Positions 1-10,348 of a stretch of DNA of 31,640 bases are shown here, piece after piece (within the stretch, counting starts at the first letter, position 1; each line of letters starts with the position of its first letter). The notes under the pieces are model-generated. The model did no database searches. It was not told where the DNA came from and worked only from the letters and a program-made list of their open reading frames with translations. The stretch is from a virus: the IMG/VR virus record IMGVR_UViG_3300027733_002295, positions 1 through 31,640 of that record. One strand, given 5' to 3'. Made by a program: the position numbers and the translations under genes.

Positions 1-1465
1 TTTCAAATGCTTCGCCGCCAACCGCGAGACCTTGGTAGGCGCGGTGGGTGGCTGTGTAGCTAAGTGTGCCGCTGCGAGGAGTCGTAAAAATGAGCTTCTG
101 CGCGGTGGCGTCAAATACCACAAGGGCGGTGGTGCCACCGAGTTGAAAAAGGTTAACATTATCCATTCTCGCTGGGAGCTCGAATGCGTTGCCTGGCCAA
201 TATTGAAATTTGAAGGTGTAATTTTTGGGCAGCCCCAAAGTTTGGGCGGCATCGAAGACGGCTTCGACGGTAAAAATGCCATCGGCTTGGCCTGTCGGGT
301 AATTGTAGCCGATATGCAATTTGTTATTCGCAACGCCCGCCAGCGTTTCTTCGAGCGCAGCAAAAGGGTAAAATACTCCATCTACGCCAAATGGATCACC
401 GTCGATAAACGTGTTAAATGTGACTACAGAAAGGACCTCTTTAAGTTGGGTAGGCAGATTGAGAGTGGACCCAAAAAAATTATATTCATCGTACTTGATG
501 ACTGGCCCCGAGACGGTGATGAGGCTTGGAGCCTGTATGGCGGGCGAGAATGTGATCTGGTTTGCCGAAAATGAATAGTTGCTAGGCGAGAGGGTGACCC
601 CGTTGACTGAAATCTCGACCACGCTTGGCCATAGGATTTTGGCGACAGGAACATCGCTTTGATTAGTGATGGATGCAAACTCCAGCGTGGCTTCTCCGCG
701 CTCGGTTTTAAAACAGGCTTTTCCACCCGAGGCGGAAATATGGGTCTTGAAAAACAATGTTGCGGTGGCGCGGTTGTAGTAAAATGGCACGCTTGGATCG
801 GTGGCATCCTCGCTCTCCACGCTCACGGTCGTGACAGCAAAGAGAGGCGATGAGGTCGAGATTGAGGTGCTTACGTGGCTTGGGTTTGCGTTGTGAGTGC
901 TGGCCTCGATGGTAAAAAAAACCGAGTTGGCGGAGGCTACTCCGGTTATGTTGGCGGAGATTCCTGGCAGGCGCTTGTCTAAAAAGTAAAAACACTGGCG
1001 ATCGCGTTTGAAAACAAAGTCCTCCCCTTCGATAAATGCAGTCGCGCCAAGCGATACGCTAGAAACCCCATCGATCCAACCTTTTTGTGCAGGAAAGTTG
1101 CCTGCATTTGGCCGGTGGAATGCGGTCTGCTCGGCTAGTGTTTCGGTAATGGTCAGCGTTGTGGTGGTTGCATTTTGTCCTGTCAGGACTTTTTGCCTGG
1201 CGGCGATATATTTTGAGTTTCCAGATCCTCCTCCTCCGCCGGACGCGATGACAGGGACTTTGGCGGAGTTGAGAACGTAAAGCTGGACTTCGCTGCCATC
1301 CATGGGGGCGACGGAACACGCCTGCCCTGCATAAGCTGTCGGGTTCTCGGCGGCATAGACCTCGAGGTCGCCCAGAGTGCGGAATACAGAAGTGGCGTCC
1401 AACGGAAAATTGGCGAGCCTTTGAAAACCTTTAGGGATGCTTACTGGGGCAATATTCTCTGGCAT
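1..1465 (-). CDS. Tail fibre / receptor-binding region structural protein (partial, C-terminus off window)
   Basis: The frame is open from ATG at 1465 to the window edge, giving 488 codons without a stop, so the C-terminus is missing. It begins MPENIAPVSIPKGFQRL and has a Gly-rich linker (SGGGGGSG) near residues 75-82. The rest is rich in Ser, Thr, Asn and aromatic residues and looks like beta-structured fibre sequence; there is no signal peptide or membrane helix. The start overlaps the stop of the RCC1/Ig protein by one base (TGATG), so the two are probably translationally coupled. Its place as the last tail gene before the edge, after the tape measure and a giant repeat protein, argues for a fibre or baseplate component. 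I recognise no named family. The reading frame is secure; the function is inferred from position. Confidence 0.75.
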   Translation of the reverse strand, partial: MPENIAPVSIPKGFQRLANFPLDATSVFRTLGDLEVYAAENPTAYAGQACSVAPMDGSEVQLYVLNSAKVPVIASGGGGGSGNSKYIAARQKVLTGQNATTTTLTITETLAEQTAFHRPNAGNFPAQKGWIDGVSSVSLGATAFIEGEDFVFKRDRQCFYFLDKRLPGISANITGVASANSVFFTIEASTHNANPSHVSTSISTSSPLFAVTTVSVESEDATDPSVPFYYNRATATLFFKTHISASGGKACFKTERGEATLEFASITNQSDVPVAKILWPSVVEISVNGVTLSPSNYSFSANQITFSPAIQAPSLITVSGPVIKYDEYNFFGSTLNLPTQLKEVLSVVTFNTFIDGDPFGVDGVFYPFAALEETLAGVANNKLHIGYNYPTGQADGIFTVEAVFDAAQTLGLPKNYTFKFQYWPGNAFELPARMDNVNLFQLGGTTALVVFDATAQKLIFTTPRSGTLSYTATHRAYQGLAVGGEAFE

Positions 1466-4389
1466 CAGATTGTGACAACGTAGGTTGCGAAATTTGAGAA
1501 CGGAACGGCGGCTATGTAGGTATAGACGCGGTAGTTGACCGTAGTGCCGCCTGCGACGGAGACGGGAACTGTCGCCAGATCAAATGTGTCGAGCACATTG
1601 GCATCGAGGAACTCGGCGTAAAAAATGGAAGAAATTTCACCAAGGCTAGCCGGCATGGCAATCGTGATCCGTCGGTCGCCAGGCTTGACAACGATGGGGT
1701 AGACTTTGCCTTTGGAGACGCCAAATGAGGGCGAGCCGATATTGCGAACGGTGCTTGTGTTGGTCGCTTGGAAAGGGTTGGTGTCTGCGCCCATGTACGC
1801 CACGGCGGAGAGCGCATTTCCAATGATGACGGAATTTTGAATCTCGGCAGGAAGTGTGATTGTGCGGAAAGCGCTGGTGGTGTCTTCCCATTTCACTTCA
1901 AAAATGGCGGAGACTTTTTCTTGCCCAGTAGAAAAGAGGGCGGCGATGACGTCGGAGGATAGGTCAATGGTGCCGCTCGAGCTGGCGGAAAAAGCCAGAT
2001 ATTCGATCGAGCTATAGGAGGCTTTTATGCCGACTGAAACCGAAAAAGAGGATGGGATCGCAAATGAGCTAGTGCCCTCGACAAAAACGATGCGAAAAGG
2101 AAGGCGGTCGTCTCGCTTGAGAGTCATCTTTGCCAGGGCAAATTTTGTGTCGGCCTTGGTAAGGATCTTACGGTTGCGGACATCCACGAAGATTTCTAGC
2201 TCCGACCAGTTGACAACCGTGACGGTGAGTTGAACTGTCGAGGAGACATTGCTGGCATCGGTGGCCGTGAGCGAGATGCTCGTTGTGCCGCTGAATGTCG
2301 GTGTGCCGCTGATGGCCCCAGTGGTGGCATTGATCGACGCCCATTCTGGCAGATTGGAGGCATACCATTTCACGGCTGTGCCGGAAAGGATTGAGGGGGT
2401 TTGCGTAAAAGGCGCTCCCAAGGTGGCGGTAAAAGATTGGTTTTCGGATAGCATAAGTGGCGTGGTTGATCCACCGCCTCCACCGCCTCCGCCGCCGCTT
2501 GCGGAAATGGTGAAAGATACATTTGTCGGGGTGCTCGAGCCTCCAGTGCCCGTGGCTGTGACGGCAGCCGTGGAAGTGGCCGCTGTGGTCGGAGTGCCAG
2601 TAATGGCTCCAGTAGTGGCATTGAGAGAGAGCCCGGCGGGCAAGCCTGTTGCCGCCCATGAAGTCGCTGGGCGATTGCTGGCATTGGTGAGATTTATGAC
2701 CCCGCTCAATGCGGTGCCCACCGTGCCAGTGATGGATTGGCCCGCCGTGATGATAGGAACCCCTGCTCCGACTACAAAAGAGACCGATTGGTTTGCGCTA
2801 GTGCCCCCCGGTCCTGTGGCACGGAGATCCGGCGCCGAAGTGCCCATGGCGGTCGGTGTTCCCGTGATGGCTCCGGTGGTAGCGTTAAGAGAGAGCCCTG
2901 CTGGCAATGCGCCGCTGGCGATGGCCCATGAGGTCGCTGGGCGAGTGCTGGCATTGGTGAGTGCAGGCGTCTGCGAAAATGCCACGCCGACTTTGCCAGT
3001 GAAGGATTGGCCCGCCGTGATAGTTGGTGGTAAAACGGCAGAAATGGTGATGGTGCCTATGGCTTGGGCGCTTGTGCCGCCAATTCCAGTAGCCGTCAAA
3101 GTGATGTTGCCAGCAAATGGGTCAAGAGGCGTGCCAGTGATACGGCCAACGGATGCATTAAAAGTCGCCCACGATGGAAGTGCGGTGCATGTCCATGATG
3201 TTGCCGGGCGGTTGACTGAGTCCTCCAATGAGGCCGCGCCGACAAAAGCTGAGCCTACCAATCCCGTAAACTGAATGGGAGTCGTGATGATTGGTGTCCC
3301 ATAAGCAATAACGAATTGAATGGTGACTGGATCTGGGTTCCTCGGTGCCGTGGCTTGGCCAGCTCGGTTGTTGTAGTTGTACCCGCCACCCGCCAATGGC
3401 CAACCAATGCCGTCGCCATTATTATTCAGGGCGAGAGAATAAAATCCACCTGCGGAAAGTTTGGCAGGCGACACGACATCTGTCGGGATGTTGCATTGCC
3501 CTTGAGAGTTATTCCCCCACGCAATGACGGTGCCGTTTGATTTTTCTGCTAAGGAAAAATAACCTCCGGCAGAAATGGAGGTGACGCCCGTTGCGCTTGC
3601 TGGGACGGTCGTTTGGCCCGATGTATTCAGACCCCAAGCAACTACCGTTCCGTCGCTCTTGAGCGCGAGCGCATGGCTGTACCCGGCAGAGATCGCGGTG
3701 ACGCCAGATAATCCAGAAGGGATCGTCGTTTGGCCAGCGTCATTCCTGCCCCAAGCTACGACGGTGCCGTTGCTTTTTAGCGCCAATGAGAAATTCAGAC
3801 CCGCTGAAATCGCCGTGACGCCAGTTAAGCTCGGTGGGACGGTGGCTTCCCCGTACTCATTATGGCCCCAAGCTACGACGGTGCCGTTGCTTTTCAAAGC
3901 CAGACAATGGCCCAAAATACGACCCGCTGAAATCGCGGTGACGCCAGTTAAGCTCGGTGGGACGGTGGCTGCGCCTAATGTCGTATTGCCCCAACCGAAG
4001 ACCGTGCCATCGCTCTTGAGCGCAAAGGCATGTCCCTCTCCAGCAGATATCGCGGTAATGCCGGAAAGGACATCTATGCCTGCGGCGGGCTCAAAATGTT
4101 CCGAGCTATTGTCACCAAAAGCAAAGACTGTCCCATCATTTCGCAAGCCAAAAGATACCGTCTCCGTGGCCACAAAATCTACAAAAGTCTGCTTGTCTTG
4201 TATAAAGGTGGCAGTGGAGGTGGCTGCTGTGGTCGGTGTGCCAGTAATGGCCCCCGTTGTCGGATTGATCGATAGCCCAGAGGGTAGTCCAGATCCTGTC
4301 CACGAAAGTATGGTGCCCGAATGCGCGGGCGTCTGCGAAAATGCTACGCCAACTTTGCCATTTAGGGTTTGACCAGGTGAGATTGCCAT
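1465..4389 (-). CDS. Giant tail protein: RCC1 propeller plus Ig-like repeats
   Basis: 974 residues. Residues 1-60 form most of a 'putative Ig' (He_PIG) domain with the signature GLSINPTTGAITGTP. Residues about 62-355 hold seven RCC1-type blades built on VTAISAG...LALKSNGTVVAWG, enough for a closed seven-bladed propeller. Residues about 360-627 hold three more Ig-like domains, then a poly-Gly linker (about 628-637) and a fifth Ig-like domain (about 645-727). The last 245 residues are a different domain, possibly like an upper-baseplate protein. Such repeats usually bind proteins or glycans, so a host-contacting tail fibre is the likely role. ATG 4389 is preceded by TTTTGACA with a 16-nt gap. 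Neighbouring repeats are very alike in DNA, which suggests recent duplication or shuffling. The domains are clear; the structural role is inferred. Confidence 0.85.
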   Translation of the reverse strand: MAISPGQTLNGKVGVAFSQTPAHSGTILSWTGSGLPSGLSINPTTGAITGTPTTAATSTATFIQDKQTFVDFVATETVSFGLRNDGTVFAFGDNSSEHFEPAAGIDVLSGITAISAGEGHAFALKSDGTVFGWGNTTLGAATVPPSLTGVTAISAGRILGHCLALKSNGTVVAWGHNEYGEATVPPSLTGVTAISAGLNFSLALKSNGTVVAWGRNDAGQTTIPSGLSGVTAISAGYSHALALKSDGTVVAWGLNTSGQTTVPASATGVTSISAGGYFSLAEKSNGTVIAWGNNSQGQCNIPTDVVSPAKLSAGGFYSLALNNNGDGIGWPLAGGGYNYNNRAGQATAPRNPDPVTIQFVIAYGTPIITTPIQFTGLVGSAFVGAASLEDSVNRPATSWTCTALPSWATFNASVGRITGTPLDPFAGNITLTATGIGGTSAQAIGTITISAVLPPTITAGQSFTGKVGVAFSQTPALTNASTRPATSWAIASGALPAGLSLNATTGAITGTPTAMGTSAPDLRATGPGGTSANQSVSFVVGAGVPIITAGQSITGTVGTALSGVINLTNASNRPATSWAATGLPAGLSLNATTGAITGTPTTAATSTAAVTATGTGGSSTPTNVSFTISASGGGGGGGGGSTTPLMLSENQSFTATLGAPFTQTPSILSGTAVKWYASNLPEWASINATTGAISGTPTFSGTTSISLTATDASNVSSTVQLTVTVVNWSELEIFVDVRNRKILTKADTKFALAKMTLKRDDRLPFRIVFVEGTSSFAIPSSFSVSVGIKASYSSIEYLAFSASSSGTIDLSSDVIAALFSTGQEKVSAIFEVKWEDTTSAFRTITLPAEIQNSVIIGNALSAVAYMGADTNPFQATNTSTVRNIGSPSFGVSKGKVYPIVVKPGDRRITIAMPASLGEISSIFYAEFLDANVLDTFDLATVPVSVAGGTTVNYRVYTYIAAVPFSNFATYVVTI
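2510..3290 (-). repeat. Ig-like domain-encoding tandem repeats
   Basis: Three successive units of about 260 bp encode Ig-like domains with the shared sentence PAGLSLNATTGAITGTPT. The unit near 2570 is almost identical in DNA to the stretch near 4210 that encodes the end of the first Ig-like domain, which links the two sides of the propeller. Confidence 0.7.
3310..4110 (-). repeat. RCC1 blade-encoding tandem repeats
   Basis: Degenerate tandem units of about 117-123 bp, each encoding one propeller blade. The plus-strand phrase acgacggtgccgttgctttt recurs in adjacent units (about 3758 and 3877), and 'gacgccagttaagctcggtggg' type segments recur at about 3820 and 3941. Near-identity of neighbouring units indicates recent unit duplication. 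Confidence 0.7.
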
Positions 4390-5263: not shown

Positions 5264-7786
5264 TTATGCGACGAGAGCGGCGACGGGGAGCTTGGGTTCT
5301 ATTTTGCCGACGAGGTTTTTGATGTCGGAGACGAGGTTTTTGAGTTCCGAGAGGATGCTGGTGTCGGGCTTCGGTGGCTCTTGCATGGGTGTGGTGCCGG
5401 GGCCAAAGCTCGGTAGGGAGTCGGTGAGGTTGAGCTTTAAGGGCTCGCTGAATGCGGCTGCGGCGGCGGACTTGAGCGAGGCCAGCGAGTCGGCAAAGGC
5501 GGCCATATCGAACTTGGCAACGAGATCCACTGGCTTTGCCCCCAGCTCGGCGATGCTGGCGGCGGCGGCGGTTGTGTCGGCGGTGGCCTTCACTTTGACC
5601 TCGGTTGGCGCTTTGCCAGACTGAACGATCGCATAAACGGCGGCTTGCACATCAGCCAACGATCCGCCCATGTCTTTTGCGACGATTTCGGCAGTGGCTC
5701 CGTTTCCGATCGCGGCGATGGAGTCCTTGTATTCTTTGAGCGACGCGAATCCTTGCTCTTTTAGGGTGAGCAAAACTTCTTTGGTTGGTGCGAGGTTTTT
5801 AACCTCAGCGGCGGCGAACTTCCAATCGTCTTTGCCTGTCAGTTTGATCGCCAAATCCACATCTTTTTGGGTAGGCAGGCTGTAGAGGATTTTCTGCAAA
5901 TTTTCGACTGAGTCCACACCGGCGGTCTTCATCCCAACCTCGATATTTTTATTATCCATAAGCCCAAGGATCTTGCGGGCTTCGATAAGATCGGGCTGCC
6001 CGGTGAGCTTGAGGGCGACCTCGATGGAGTGCTGCGTGGCCGAAGCACTATTGATCTCGGCCAGAAGGGTCTTGAATTTTGTGTCTTCGATTTTGGTGGT
6101 GACGGTGATGATGATGTTTTTGCCCGAAATGCTGTCGGTGATCTGCTTGGTGCGGAGCATGGCGTCTGCGAAGGCGTTGGCGTTCGCTTCGCCCATGCCG
6201 GATTCGGTGGATTTTTTCCACGCGTCGAGCCATACCTTGCGCTCCTCGAGGGCTTTTTGTTCGGCTTGGTTGCCTGTGGCTTTGGCGGTGGCAAGATCGA
6301 GCTCAAACTGGAGTTCAGCTTGTTTGGCGGCTTGGATTTTTGTGGTGGCGTCGAGTTGGGTGTTGAGTTCCTGCGTGACCTGTTTTGCCCCTTCGGTGGC
6401 GGGAACCATGGCTGTCTCCATCGATGTGCGGGTCGCTTTGCCGCTGGCCTCGATAGCATCCATCTGGGCGTTCATCCGCTTGGTTGCGTCTTCGGCTCCA
6501 AAAAAGTCCTCTTTAAATACTCGAGTTTTTGAAGCGGTCTTGTCGAACTCCTCTGTGACTTTGCCTGCGGCTTTGGCGGTCTCGCCCATGTTGGCAATCT
6601 GAGCCTCTCCGAGCTTGGTATTTGCGGCGTCGAGTACCTCAAACATCTTGTCGCCTGCGGCCTTGAAGCCCGGCAATTCGGAGATCGCTGCGGAAAATGT
6701 CATGAGCGACTCGGTGATATGTCGCCCGAATGTGAGAGCGGCATCGATGAGCGCGCTGCCGATGTAAGCTGTGACCGCAGAAGCTAAGTTGGTCTCCATG
6801 GACTTAACCAAAAAGTCAATGACCGTGGAGGACGTGTTGAAAAAGGCATTGCCGAAAGTCTTTACTGCGACCTCGAACGAGGTGCCGTAGGCCTTAATGG
6901 TGGCGATGGGATCATTAAAAGCCCCAATGAGTCGGTCTGCCAAGCGGACGACTATGTCCATGGTGGCCTTCCCCCAACCGGCAGCATCCACGCCACTGAG
7001 GGCGGCAGTGAATACGTTCAAGGCTGGTAAGGCTTTTTCTAAAAATCCGGCGGCGAACTCAAGAACCTTGTTGTTAAGAGCGGCCATGTTATCGCCCACG
7101 CTGTCGAAGGCGGCGGCGGAGCGATCCATCACGCCAGGGAGTCCGCCGAGTTGCCCCTTGGCCCCTTCGATCTCTCCGCTGAAATTTTGAAGGATGGGGA
7201 GAAGCTCTCCGCCGGATTTACCGAAGATCGACATTGCGGCTTCGGCGCGCTGCGCTGGATCTTGAATAGAAGAGATGCGCTGCGCAAATACGCCCATTTG
7301 GTCTGTGGGTGTCTTCCCTGCGAGATCGCCCATGGTGATGCCGAGTCTGGACATGGCGTCGGATTGAGCGGCTCCGCCTTGGGCTGCATCCACCATGAAC
7401 TTTTGCATTTTGTTCATAGAGGTGCCGACGGCATCGGCGCTCACTCCTGTATTGGTGAAGGCGCGCTCAAGAATGAGGAGATTGCCTGCGGTTTCGCCTG
7501 TGCGGCTTGAGAGGTCGTTGAGTTTGCCGCCGAGGTCTATGGCTGCGCCGAATTGATCGACGACAGCGCGGGCGGCGGCGGTGGCGGCTTCGACTGCCAT
7601 CATGCCAACCTTGACGGCGGCACCGGCTACGCCTGCGGCGAGGCCGATCTTGCCGAAAGACATATCAAATCCTTTGGCGGCTCCTGCGCCCTTTGCTCCA
7701 AAATCGTTGATGCTATTCGTGACGCTCTTTAAAGAGTTGCTGAGGCCTTCGTCTTTGGCGCCGAGGGTGACTGTAATATCGCTCAT
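5264..7786 (-). CDS. Tail tape measure protein
   Basis: 840 residues from ATG 7786, which overlaps the upstream stop as ATGA; I chose this over a start about 260 bases further upstream because that extra stretch is the upstream gene read in the wrong frame. The N-terminus (MSDITVTLGAKDEG) is followed by an Ala/Gly-rich hydrophobic stretch at about 45-76. Next comes the block GKTPTDQMGVFAQRISS...AMSIFGKSGGELLPIL, typical of siphovirus tape measures. The middle is long, helical and Ala/Lys-rich with a second hydrophobic stretch, and the C-terminus is Pro/Leu-rich. It is the longest head-to-tail gene after the chaperone pair, exactly where a tape measure belongs. By the family rule of roughly 0.15 nm per residue, 840 residues would mean a tail of about 125 nm; this is an estimate. 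Confidence 0.92.
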   Translation of the reverse strand: MSDITVTLGAKDEGLSNSLKSVTNSINDFGAKGAGAAKGFDMSFGKIGLAAGVAGAAVKVGMMAVEAATAAARAVVDQFGAAIDLGGKLNDLSSRTGETAGNLLILERAFTNTGVSADAVGTSMNKMQKFMVDAAQGGAAQSDAMSRLGITMGDLAGKTPTDQMGVFAQRISSIQDPAQRAEAAMSIFGKSGGELLPILQNFSGEIEGAKGQLGGLPGVMDRSAAAFDSVGDNMAALNNKVLEFAAGFLEKALPALNVFTAALSGVDAAGWGKATMDIVVRLADRLIGAFNDPIATIKAYGTSFEVAVKTFGNAFFNTSSTVIDFLVKSMETNLASAVTAYIGSALIDAALTFGRHITESLMTFSAAISELPGFKAAGDKMFEVLDAANTKLGEAQIANMGETAKAAGKVTEEFDKTASKTRVFKEDFFGAEDATKRMNAQMDAIEASGKATRTSMETAMVPATEGAKQVTQELNTQLDATTKIQAAKQAELQFELDLATAKATGNQAEQKALEERKVWLDAWKKSTESGMGEANANAFADAMLRTKQITDSISGKNIIITVTTKIEDTKFKTLLAEINSASATQHSIEVALKLTGQPDLIEARKILGLMDNKNIEVGMKTAGVDSVENLQKILYSLPTQKDVDLAIKLTGKDDWKFAAAEVKNLAPTKEVLLTLKEQGFASLKEYKDSIAAIGNGATAEIVAKDMGGSLADVQAAVYAIVQSGKAPTEVKVKATADTTAAAASIAELGAKPVDLVAKFDMAAFADSLASLKSAAAAAFSEPLKLNLTDSLPSFGPGTTPMQEPPKPDTSILSELKNLVSDIKNLVGKIEPKLPVAALVA

Positions 7787-8562
7787 TGTAGTTCGGCTTG
7801 TTTGGATTTTTCCGCTTTGATGGCGTGGGACATCATGCTCATCATTTTTTTCTTCGCCAGGTTGACGGCGAAAGATTCTCCACCGGCATCGAGGGTGGCG
7901 CGGGCGTAGGACACAGAGTTGGTAATCGCGATGGAAAATCCCATGCCTTCTTTTTGCATGGCGGCGACCATGCCCGCAGCTTTGGGCATATTCCGCTGGA
8001 CCCATGACGGCACGCCCTTGAGGGGCTCGCGCACGTCGGCGTTGCACTTCTCGGCCACGATGGCCCAGCCTGCCTTGGCGATGCCGACTTTTTTCAGCGT
8101 CTCTTTGAGATACTTGCGATAGGTGGCTTGCTTAATGAGAGCACGGTTAAGGAGGCCGAGGCGAGTGGTCTGCCCGGCGGCGGTCTTGTGCGATTTGTGC
8201 CAAGACTTTGCTGCACCGACATCGGAAATCTGCGTCTGCGTGTCGGTCGCCCACACGATGCCGCTTTTGCTATGCAGTGCCGCGCCGCCGGAGCTAAATG
8301 CGGTGCCTTTTTTAAGTTCCTTCCACCAGGTGGGATTGATGATGGTAAATATGCTGCGGATGTCTCCGGCGACTTGCTTCTCTCCTGCTTGCTTGGAGGT
8401 CCCGCTTGTGCCTGACGGCGCGGTGTAGCGCATGCACTCGAGCGCGCAGAGCCGGGCGGCATTATTGACAAGCTGGCCGACCTCTTTGCCGACAAGAAAT
8501 TCGTATTTCTTCATTTTCCGAAGAAACTTGGTGTCGTCGATTTGTATGCTTGGAGTTGCCAT
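7783..8562 (-). CDS. Tail morphogenesis protein, unknown (HK97 gp10-like features)
   Basis: 259 residues, ATG 8562. The N-terminal half (KEVGQLVNNAARLCALECMR then YTAPSGTSG) resembles the helical start plus 'TP-x-G-TG' turn of gp10-like tail completion proteins, but this protein is longer and sits after the chaperones rather than before the tube. Lys-rich throughout; the C-terminal helix ends KAEKSKQAELQ. There are no membrane helices. It is coupled to the tape measure by an ATGA overlap and lies 7 bases after the stop of the frameshift product, so it probably acts in tail assembly. Function uncertain. Confidence 0.75.
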   Translation of the reverse strand: MATPSIQIDDTKFLRKMKKYEFLVGKEVGQLVNNAARLCALECMRYTAPSGTSGTSKQAGEKQVAGDIRSIFTIINPTWWKELKKGTAFSSGGAALHSKSGIVWATDTQTQISDVGAAKSWHKSHKTAAGQTTRLGLLNRALIKQATYRKYLKETLKKVGIAKAGWAIVAEKCNADVREPLKGVPSWVQRNMPKAAGMVAAMQKEGMGFSIAITNSVSYARATLDAGGESFAVNLAKKKMMSMMSHAIKAEKSKQAELQ

Positions 8563-8569
8563 GTTTTAT

Positions 8570-9186
8570 TTAAAGGCGCGCAAAGACGGCTTCTATATCG
8601 CTTGCCAAGTCAAAAGCGGCTGCGGTGTTATTGCGCTTCCAGGCTTTGGGTGCTCCCTGCGCGGTGGCGTCTGCGTGCAGGAGTTGCAGTCCTGCTGTGA
8701 AGGGGACCTCGAATAAAATGGCGTGATGGCCCCAACCGGTAAGTTTCGCGACTTGGTAAACATAAGAGGCGAGCCAGTTGGGGCTGTTTAGTTTCCCGAC
8801 GAGTTGCCCGTGGCTGAGGTCGACTCCGATGCGTTGATGCGCTCGAACTCAAGCTTCACTGCCTCGGTGAGCGCGGCTTGAGATTCGAGGGTTTCGTAAT
8901 TCTCAATATGCCATTTGCGAACGGCGCGGGAGAAGGCGTCGGGGTTGTCTGCGATCTCGAGCACTTCGTCGAGCGGGACGGTGTGGACGTAGCCGAAAGC
9001 GGCGACCGACCAGAAGTTGCCTTTTTTGCCCGTGCTGTTGCTCTGGACGATGTCAATGGTGCCTGGCACAAAGCGCCGGAGCTTGAAGTCGCCGACTTTG
9101 GTGGACCCGGGGCGCATGCCTTGGAGGCGGAGTGCGTCGTCGTCTTTTGCGAAATCGTTGTCGGTGGTTTTTTGTTTTGTTTTCAT
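8570..9186 (-). CDS. Tail assembly chaperone G-T fusion (programmed -1 frameshift product)
   Basis: Predicted 205-residue fusion. The 132 residues of the zero-frame gene are followed, after a -1 slip at GGGAAAC (8797-8791), by 73 residues beginning LNSPNWLASYVYQVAKLTGW and ending SDIEAVFARL at a TAA (8572-8570). The extension frame has no ATG, GTG or TTG between its preceding stop and the zero-frame stop, so it can hardly be expressed on its own. It nevertheless has convincing protein composition, with several Trp residues and amphipathic helices. This matches lambda gpG/gpGT: two products from one start, lying between tube and tape measure, with the T domain recruiting tube subunits to the tape measure. 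The frameshift site, spacer and stem are all visible; efficiency cannot be judged. Confidence 0.85.
8729..8797 (-). promoter_or_regulatory. -1 ribosomal frameshift signal: GGGAAAC plus stem-loop
   Basis: On the minus strand the canonical X XXY YYZ heptamer G GGA AAC occupies 8797-8791 in the zero frame and is followed immediately by the zero-frame TAA. A 6-nt spacer (TAAACA, 8790-8785) leads into GCCCCAACTGG (8784-8774). That segment pairs over 11 bp, with one G-U, with CCGGTTGGGGC (8739-8729) across a loop of 34 nt. Heptamer class, frame, spacer length and stem all fit known tail-chaperone frameshift sites. Confidence 0.85.
8788..9186 (-). CDS. Tail assembly chaperone G (zero-frame product)
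   Basis: 132 residues from ATG 9186, beginning MKTKQKTTDNDFAKDDDAL, helical and charged with a Ser/Asn-rich C-terminus (SATGNSSGN) that ends directly at the slippery heptamer. In phages the short G product coats the tape measure and is more abundant than the fusion. The leader is A-rich (AAAACCAAAAAAATG) without a Shine-Dalgarno sequence. Position between tube genes and tape measure and the overlapping -1 frame make the assignment strong even though sequence similarity among chaperones is low. Confidence 0.85.
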   Translation of the reverse strand: MKTKQKTTDNDFAKDDDALRLQGMRPGSTKVGDFKLRRFVPGTIDIVQSNSTGKKGNFWSVAAFGYVHTVPLDEVLEIADNPDAFSRAVRKWHIENYETLESQAALTEAVKLEFERINASESTSATGNSSGN

Positions 9187-9203: not shown

Positions 9204-9596
9204 TTAGAAAAACTTGGCGAATTTTTGACGCGTTTCCTGCGTGGCGTTTTCGGAGAGAAGAAGGATTTTGCCGTTGCGGCGGATCTCGATGGTGCGGGTC
9301 GTGTCGTGGTGGAGATCGATGAGACGCTCACGGTTGATAAATCCGGCGCGGATGTAATTGACGGGGTGCTCGGCATCGGACTCCTCAATCTCAACGTGCC
9401 CTTTGGTCATCCAATGGATGACCTTGCTGGCGCGCATGCCTCGGGGGCCGTCTTCGGCGACCCAGTAGGCGCTGGATTCCTTGCCGTCTTCGCGGGCGAT
9501 GCGGACGCAGGGAGTGGATTCATGGAAGTCAAAGCCGAGCGTGGCGAGTGCCGATGCGGCCTTGAGGTTACCGGTGGACGTGTAGGAGCGGTTCAT
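9204..9596 (-). CDS. Tail-region protein of unknown function
   Basis: 130 residues from ATG 9596, beginning MNRSYTSTGNLKAASALATL. A compact alpha/beta protein with charged central strands (HVEIEESDAEHPVNYIRAG) and a basic helical C-terminus (ATQETRQKFAKFF). No membrane segment or recognised motif. It lies between the tube genes (after a hairpin terminator) and the tail chaperone, so it is probably a tail assembly factor. The leader CCCGAAATAATG lacks a Shine-Dalgarno sequence. Confidence 0.75.
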   Translation of the reverse strand: MNRSYTSTGNLKAASALATLGFDFHESTPCVRIAREDGKESSAYWVAEDGPRGMRASKVIHWMTKGHVEIEESDAEHPVNYIRAGFINRERLIDLHHDTTRTIEIRRNGKILLLSENATQETRQKFAKFF

Positions 9597-9665: not shown

Positions 9666-10025
9666 TTATTGCTCGGGGAGCGTGAGGTCGTATTGCGTCG
9701 CGGCAATTTTGACCTTGGCGAATCCGTCGGAGCTTTTGGAAACGACCACAGAATCAACAAGGATCGTGCCTGCGAGTTGGCCCATAGCGGTATTGGCAAT
9801 CGAGGTCATCTCGTCGCCGACCTCTACGGACGATGAAGACGCAAGGCCCTCGATGGAAATCGAGGCTTTTTTGTTGAAGCGGTGCGTTTGCACGATGTCG
9901 CCGTTGATGTCCATGACCTCGGCTTTGTCGGACGACACGTCGTAGCTGAACGACTGAACCATGAGCCCGGCTTCGTCGGTCATTCCAAATTCGATCGTTT
10001 GCGTTGAGAAAAATTTTGCGGCCAT
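9666..10025 (-). CDS. Tail tube-like protein 1
   Basis: 119 residues from ATG 10025 (MAAKFFSTQTIEFGMTDEAG); an apparent upstream extension is rejected because it is the neighbouring gene in another frame. Beta-rich, with alternating hydrophobic strands. The C-terminal strand pair DSVVVSKSSDGFAKVKIAAT aligns with the end of the next gene upstream, so the two are paralogues. Position after the tail-terminator candidate and before the chaperone, with a strong hairpin directly downstream, fits a major tail tube protein. The size is at the small end for tube proteins. Confidence 0.7.
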   Translation of the reverse strand: MAAKFFSTQTIEFGMTDEAGLMVQSFSYDVSSDKAEVMDINGDIVQTHRFNKKASISIEGLASSSSVEVGDEMTSIANTAMGQLAGTILVDSVVVSKSSDGFAKVKIAATQYDLTLPEQ

Positions 10026-10030
10026 AATGA

Positions 10031-10348
10031 TTAGGAGTTGGAGGCTGAGATTTGGATTTCGGCAAAGCCCTCGAGCGAGCGAGAGGTGGAGATGGAATCG
10101 ATCTTCCAAGTGCCAGTAGGAGCCCCAGTAAGCGCCAATGTGGCGCCCACAGTTTGAGCTGCTGTGAGATCGCCTACGGCGGAGATCGATAGCTCTTCCT
10201 TGAAGCCATAATATCCAACGGCGGCGGTCTCACCGGTCGGCCCTTGGAATTCCGTTTTTTGCGCTGACTTGGTGTGCTCCATCGACTTGACGAGCAAGTT
10301 GGGGCTCGAGATGCCGGTGATTCCAAAAGTTTGAGTTGTTGATGGCAT
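10031..10348 (-). CDS. Tail tube-like protein 2 (paralogue)
   Basis: 105 residues from ATG 10348 (MPSTTQTFGITGISSPNLLV). Its end (DSISTSRSLEGFAEIQISAS) matches the end of the following gene in spacing and pattern, namely DS-[IV]-x-S-x-S-x-[ED]-GFA. The stop lies 5 bases before the next start. Possibilities are a two-component tube, a tube plus a decoration or initiator form, or a diverging duplicate. TTTGACA stands 27 nt upstream of the start. Confidence 0.65.
   Translation of the reverse strand: MPSTTQTFGITGISSPNLLVKSMEHTKSAQKTEFQGPTGETAAVGYYGFKEELSISAVGDLTAAQTVGATLALTGAPTGTWKIDSISTSRSLEGFAEIQISASNS

Follow-up and report, generated by a model that had tools for sequence, protein, structure and literature searches.

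The window analysed here is the whole of a 31.6-kb metagenomic virus record (31,640 nucleotides), and the locus that we describe lies on its minus strand. The features of the locus, together with the genes around it, are as follows.

10031 to 10348, minus strand: tube-like protein A, 105 aa, a tentative assignment from position, sequence pattern and synteny, without a family match
9666 to 10025, minus strand: tube-like protein B, 119 aa, a tentative assignment from a weak match to phrog_2005, a minor tail protein (E 0.003), and synteny
9204 to 9596, minus strand: p130, a 130-aa gene upstream of G, conserved in position
8788 to 9186, minus strand: G ORF, 132 codons in the zero frame, from ATG at 9186 to TAA at 8788, read directly; in relatives the start is conserved and the protein has 128-147 aa
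8791 to 8797, minus strand: slippery heptamer G_GGA_AAC, read directly; X_XXA_AAC in 90/92 distinct relatives
8788 to 8790, minus strand: zero-frame stop TAA, flush with the heptamer; a stop (TAA, TAG or TGA) stands here throughout the clade
8774 to 8784, minus strand: 5' arm of the stem, GCCCCAACTGG, 6 nt past the heptamer, from folding and comparison
8729 to 8739, minus strand: 3' arm of the stem, CCGGTTGGGGC, from folding and comparison
8570 to 8791, minus strand: T domain, 73 codons in the -1 frame (LNSPNW...FARL), with its TAA stop at 8572-8570 and no usable start; pN/pS 0.34
7783 to 8562, minus strand: p259, a 259-aa gene between T and the tape measure gene, conserved in position
5264 to 7786, minus strand: tail length tape measure protein, 840 aa, ATG at 7786, from PHROG tape-measure matches (best 6e-12)

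Read on the minus strand, the G ORF ends in TCG GGA AAC TAA, which places GGGAAAC in the X_XXY_YYZ phase. The -1 frame opens with CTA AAC AGC CCC AAC TGG and remains open for 73 codons from 8791. This reading confirmed every coordinate and count that an earlier, sequence-only reading had assigned to the heptamer, the stop, the spacer, the stem and the 73-codon frame. The same reading had held that T lacks a start codon; we found a single candidate among ATG, GTG and TTG, a TTG that lies some 60 codons beyond the junction, near the C-terminal end. A -1 shift at the heptamer is predicted to join the two frames into a fusion of 132 + 73 = 205 residues, with the junction SSGN-LNSPNW (junction peptide INASESTSATGNSSGNLNSPNWLASYVYQVAK). 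A Shine-Dalgarno-like motif is absent at most candidate minus-strand starts, and the G start (9186) is preceded by an A-rich leader.

We found that GGGAAAC alone is not enriched in the window, with 3 occurrences against 4.9 expected, and that GGGAAACTAA occurs once where 0.06 occurrences are expected. Relatives of the locus were gathered by protein searches, the first two of which returned 3 and 25 loci. A search with an alignment of T that starts ten codons past the heptamer start, and so avoids selecting for the heptamer, kept 80 of 113 loci, and a search with an alignment of G gave 57. An in-phase X_XXA_AAC followed immediately by a stop is present in 90 of the 92 distinct loci that bear T. 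At other ORF ends of the same loci, an XXXYYYZ slippery heptamer stands flush before the stop in 28 of 1926 cases. The metagenomic origin of the record might suggest that an error in sequencing or assembly, or else a recent mutation, broke one gene into two frames. This explanation is refuted, and its probability negligible: the same base marks the split in some 90 distinct sequences, which come from many samples and have three different heptamers and three different stops.

Neither of the two exceptions is an instance of heptamer loss in a close relative that keeps both frames, an outcome that we never saw. One contig (L061) simply starts inside the junction. The other (L042) is the only relative in which the T frame is not intact. 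It keeps heptamer and stop, so that this is not a heptamer loss, and has lost 34 nt from between the stem arms (L042:2984-3030). This deletion, exactly between the arms, puts T beyond the reach of a -1 shift; a natural deletion and an assembly collapse at the hairpin are both possible sources of it.

The heptamer varies in a particular manner. Among 87 listed junctions, which were collected with the three heptamers that occur and are therefore illustrative only, GGGAAAC is found at 70, CCCAAAC at 9 and AAAAAAC at 8; the stop is TAA at 77, TAG at 7 and TGA at 3. Switching of the first triplet among GGG, CCC and AAA indicates that slipperiness, and not the encoded amino acids, is what has been kept, since a concerted three-base switch with Y and Z fixed is predicted by selection for tandem tRNA slippage and not by selection on the protein. 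The loci with CCCAAAC (L078, L079, L083, L088, L089, L093, L094, L097 and L098) carry at least two types of T domain (AIYAYRLVK and AAYVFRLVK), from which it appears that the switch between GGG and CCC either arose more than once or moved by recombination. Judged by this conservation, there is little doubt that the junction signal is functional.

A change of frame could also be produced during transcription, by slippage of RNA polymerase, with ribosomes playing no part. The six-A run of AAAAAAC, present in 8 of the 87 listed relatives, is a sequence at which this might occur. However, no homopolymer exceeds three in GGGAAAC or CCCAAAC, the heptamers of the window and most relatives, and a heptamer in the exact X_XXA_AAC phase, like a stem 6 nt beyond it, is a feature of ribosomal slippage. 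We consider polymerase slippage highly improbable and continue with a ribosomal shift.

The T frame evolves as a protein-coding sequence. Its mean pN is 0.218 and its mean pS 0.646, a ratio of 0.34 over 50 codons, whereas the other two frames of the same DNA give a pN/pS of 1.3; we conclude from these comparisons that the T frame is under purifying selection. To reach it, ribosomes might instead treat T as a separate gene, entered by termination and reinitiation or at a non-standard start near the G stop, in which case the heptamer would be incidental. The position of T, a conserved coding frame that directly follows G and abuts its stop, would suit such an arrangement. We scanned the T frame from its upstream stop (up to 30 codons away) to 8 codons past the heptamer, and found no ATG in any of the 87 junctions and GTG or TTG in only 5. 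The near absence of start codons is taken to rule out separate initiation of T. Moreover, a separate T would leave unexplained why X_XXA_AAC is conserved through concerted switches of its first triplet. We therefore regard this alternative as very unlikely, and a -1 shift as the likely route into T.

Downstream of the heptamer, the stem comprises 11 bp, including one G.U pair, with a 34-nt loop. Its spacer of 6 nt falls within the 5-9 nt expected for -1 frameshift sites, and its minimum free energy is -25.7 kcal/mol (z -3.99 against dinucleotide shuffles). In 38 diverse sequences, the helix was paired in 94.5% of cells, slid registers of it paired far less, and doubly changed base pairs numbered 2 against a shuffled mean of 1.0. 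RNAalifold, unaided, recovered the identical helix. The arms also encode conserved residues (SPNW and TGWG); for this reason, synonymous recodings of the same protein served as a control, and the observed folds exceeded them in stability (mean z -3.16; the median rank was 1.5 of 200). Codon choice in the arms is narrow, with CCC for the proline of the 5' arm in 82/87 and GGC for the glycine of the 3' arm in 84/86, and codons in the loop vary freely. The helix is imperfect in places: at one inner position, 10 of the 38 sequences have A.C. Together, the conservation of heptamer class, phase, stem and coding selection on T upholds the earlier prediction that a -1 frameshift yields a G-T fusion, and the heptamer and the stem, proposed as features to look for in relatives, are both conserved there.

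More distant members of the family are found in prophages of Verrucomicrobiota genomes, and most of these distant members also retain a slippery site. Some have AAAAAAC or GGGAAAC with the stop flush; others have a later stop, either GGGAAAG with the stop 3 nt on or CCCAAAC with the stop 15-18 nt on. The flush stop is thus a constant of the window's own clade and not of the wider family. One distant homologue (L169) has T in a single uninterrupted frame of 215 codons (1099-1746), without a slippery site at the junction. The G profile gave no match to the N-terminal part of this protein, which is possibly a natural in-frame G-T fusion.

Several of these sequences bear on the host. The contig of one relative (L158) was binned as Verrucomicrobiaceae; it is short and of low coverage, and binning alone is no proof. 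Homologues of T were found in 22 of 387 genomes of that bin's order. In a region of one genome (L181, genome G259), the order is head protein, G, T, a 221-aa gene and the tape measure gene, and the major head protein (196-1098) is 88% identical to that of the window. The T domain of that region is only distantly related to the window's despite the close match of the head proteins, a contrast that suggests exchange between head and tail modules. The phage family probably infects Verrucomicrobia.

To what kind of protein, then, do G and T belong? PHROGs identified a major head protein in the window (3.5e-21). In the relatives, a shared gene order runs from a gene upstream of the tubes through two tube-like genes, p130, G and T to p259 and the tape measure gene. 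The sequence-only reading had placed the pair between tube and tape measure; the order holds, with the tube genes tentative, and immediate adjacency does not, since one extra gene lies on each side, p130 towards the tubes and p259 towards the tape measure. A 974-aa tail protein is encoded at positions 1465-4389 (minus strand); its PHROG matches are to tail proteins and to repeat proteins that resemble regulator of chromosome condensation.

Sequence comparison gave no family for G or T. Searched singly and with all members of their alignments against Pfam and PHROGs, both gave chance-level matches only. We set aside matches of T to phrog_11996 and phrog_11496, each from one member and with E about 0.008, as too weak. 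A DNA search of annotated phages found nothing, a consensus-like T protein gave only a chance-level match to annotated phages, and a profile search of PDB sequences gave no match. Tail chaperone proteins are highly divergent in sequence. The predicted model of G (pLDDT 73) had nothing significant in a Foldseek comparison with the PDB; the top row for G in VIA was 2OB9, the HK97 tail assembly chaperone, as a weak match (Z 3.2, 86 residues, rmsd 6.6). The T model is a small helical domain, for which fold comparison gave no meaningful match. The modelled fold of G points only weakly to a chaperone.

Given a real frameshift, the fusion might still be some other tail or head-tail component. The want of a family match for G and T, the weak fold evidence and the additional gene between T and the tape measure gene all leave room for this. 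On the other side, known chaperones that are separated from the tape measure gene by one further gene, as in KL1, HK97 and SPP1, have the same arrangement of tube-like genes, then G, T, a single gene and the tape measure gene, and other phages besides these three also have a gene in that place (PMC3483164). The synteny is conserved, and the sizes of the proteins and the short C-terminal extension match as well. We think it improbable that the fusion is such another component. For the earlier claim that the pair are tail chaperones, layout and synteny speak well and the fold (2OB9) weakly, and no sequence family supports it. The synteny fits a lambda-type G/G-T tail assembly chaperone, and a chaperone role is well supported by the layout, by the gene order and by what generally holds for long-tailed phages (PMC5009743).

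Our results make it very likely that the locus encodes a lambda-type pair of tail assembly chaperones, produced through programmed -1 frameshifting. The heptamer, its phase, the stop, the stem, the coding selection on T, the conservation and the gene order are features that we observe; from them we infer that slippage takes place, with what efficiency it may do so, and which chaperone role each product would have. Most ribosomes would read the G frame, stop at TAA and release G, of 132 residues. With the stem 6 nt downstream making them pause, a minority would undergo a tandem slip in which the Gly and Asn tRNAs move one base back on G_GGA_AAC and pair again with GGG and AAA. Slippage could precede translocation, or follow it with the stop in the A site. 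Slipped ribosomes would go on through CTA AAC AGC to complete the 205-residue G-T. By analogy with lambda, G would coat the tape measure protein, to which tube subunits would be recruited by G-T, the less abundant form.

It is also conceivable, though in our view unlikely, that the invariant flush stop is itself part of the signal, in which case the locus would be an example, from nature, of stop-codon-coupled -1 frameshifting in bacteria. The stop would then wait in the A site, with the tRNAs in the E and P sites, and competition between termination (as shaped by release factor supply, stop context and the stem) and post-translocational slippage would set the ratio of G to G-T. For this proposal, the distant relatives whose stop lies 3-18 nt further on (GGGAAAG and CCCAAAC) would serve as natural controls. 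Eukaryotic virus sites with the stop directly 3' of the heptamer, as here, are used in polymerase expression; the likeness is one of site architecture only.

In lambda, the shift occurs at GGGAAAG, and the G stop lies some distance downstream. By contrast, GGGAAAC is here flush with the stop and followed by a strong, conserved stem, and the proteins have no sequence similarity to gpG or gpGT. G is in excess in lambda, as would be expected for this phage. In both systems, the T domain is added, here by prediction, through a -1 frameshift close to the end of G, within a tail operon and upstream of the tape measure gene (PMC5009743). Mature lambda virions contain neither gpG nor gpGT (PMC5009743), so that mass spectrometry for the products needs producing cells and not virions. 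G-T sites of the phiCbK group and of haloarchaeal viruses use AAAAAAC or GGGAAAC, heptamers that are found in the present family (PMC3556154; PMC5009743), whereas the phage groups themselves are unrelated as far as known.

For phage chaperone genes, the published mean distances between heptamer and stop are 26 and 36 nt (PMC10885494). A distance of zero is short, not new, and we rejected the notion that the stop-adjacent layout is unprecedented, as phage KL1 has the same (PMC3483164). In this Burkholderia phage, a frameshift has been predicted at gp18/gp19, where GGGAAAC lies immediately upstream of the zero-frame stop (PMC3483164). Similarly to the locus described here, KL1 has a predicted -1 shift, a possible stem-loop downstream and one gene intervening before the tape measure (PMC3483164). 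In contrast, its stop is TGA, and its gp18 has 142 aa and its fusion 264 aa, so that the KL1 extension is longer (PMC3483164). KL1 also differs as a single-phage prediction, against a conserved family here, and no sequence relation between the two is shown.

The family is large, novel in sequence and previously unannotated, and its device is itself known in tailed phages. It adds about 90 distinct frameshift junctions, plus distant Verrucomicrobiota prophages, to the tail chaperones. In nearly all of its members, the T half would escape annotation that depends on start codons. Within one protein framework, the family combines several heptamers (GGGAAAC, CCCAAAC, AAAAAAC and GGGAAAG) with several stop distances (0, 3, 15 and 18 nt), and this series offers a natural panel for the effect of an adjacent stop on bacterial -1 slippage.
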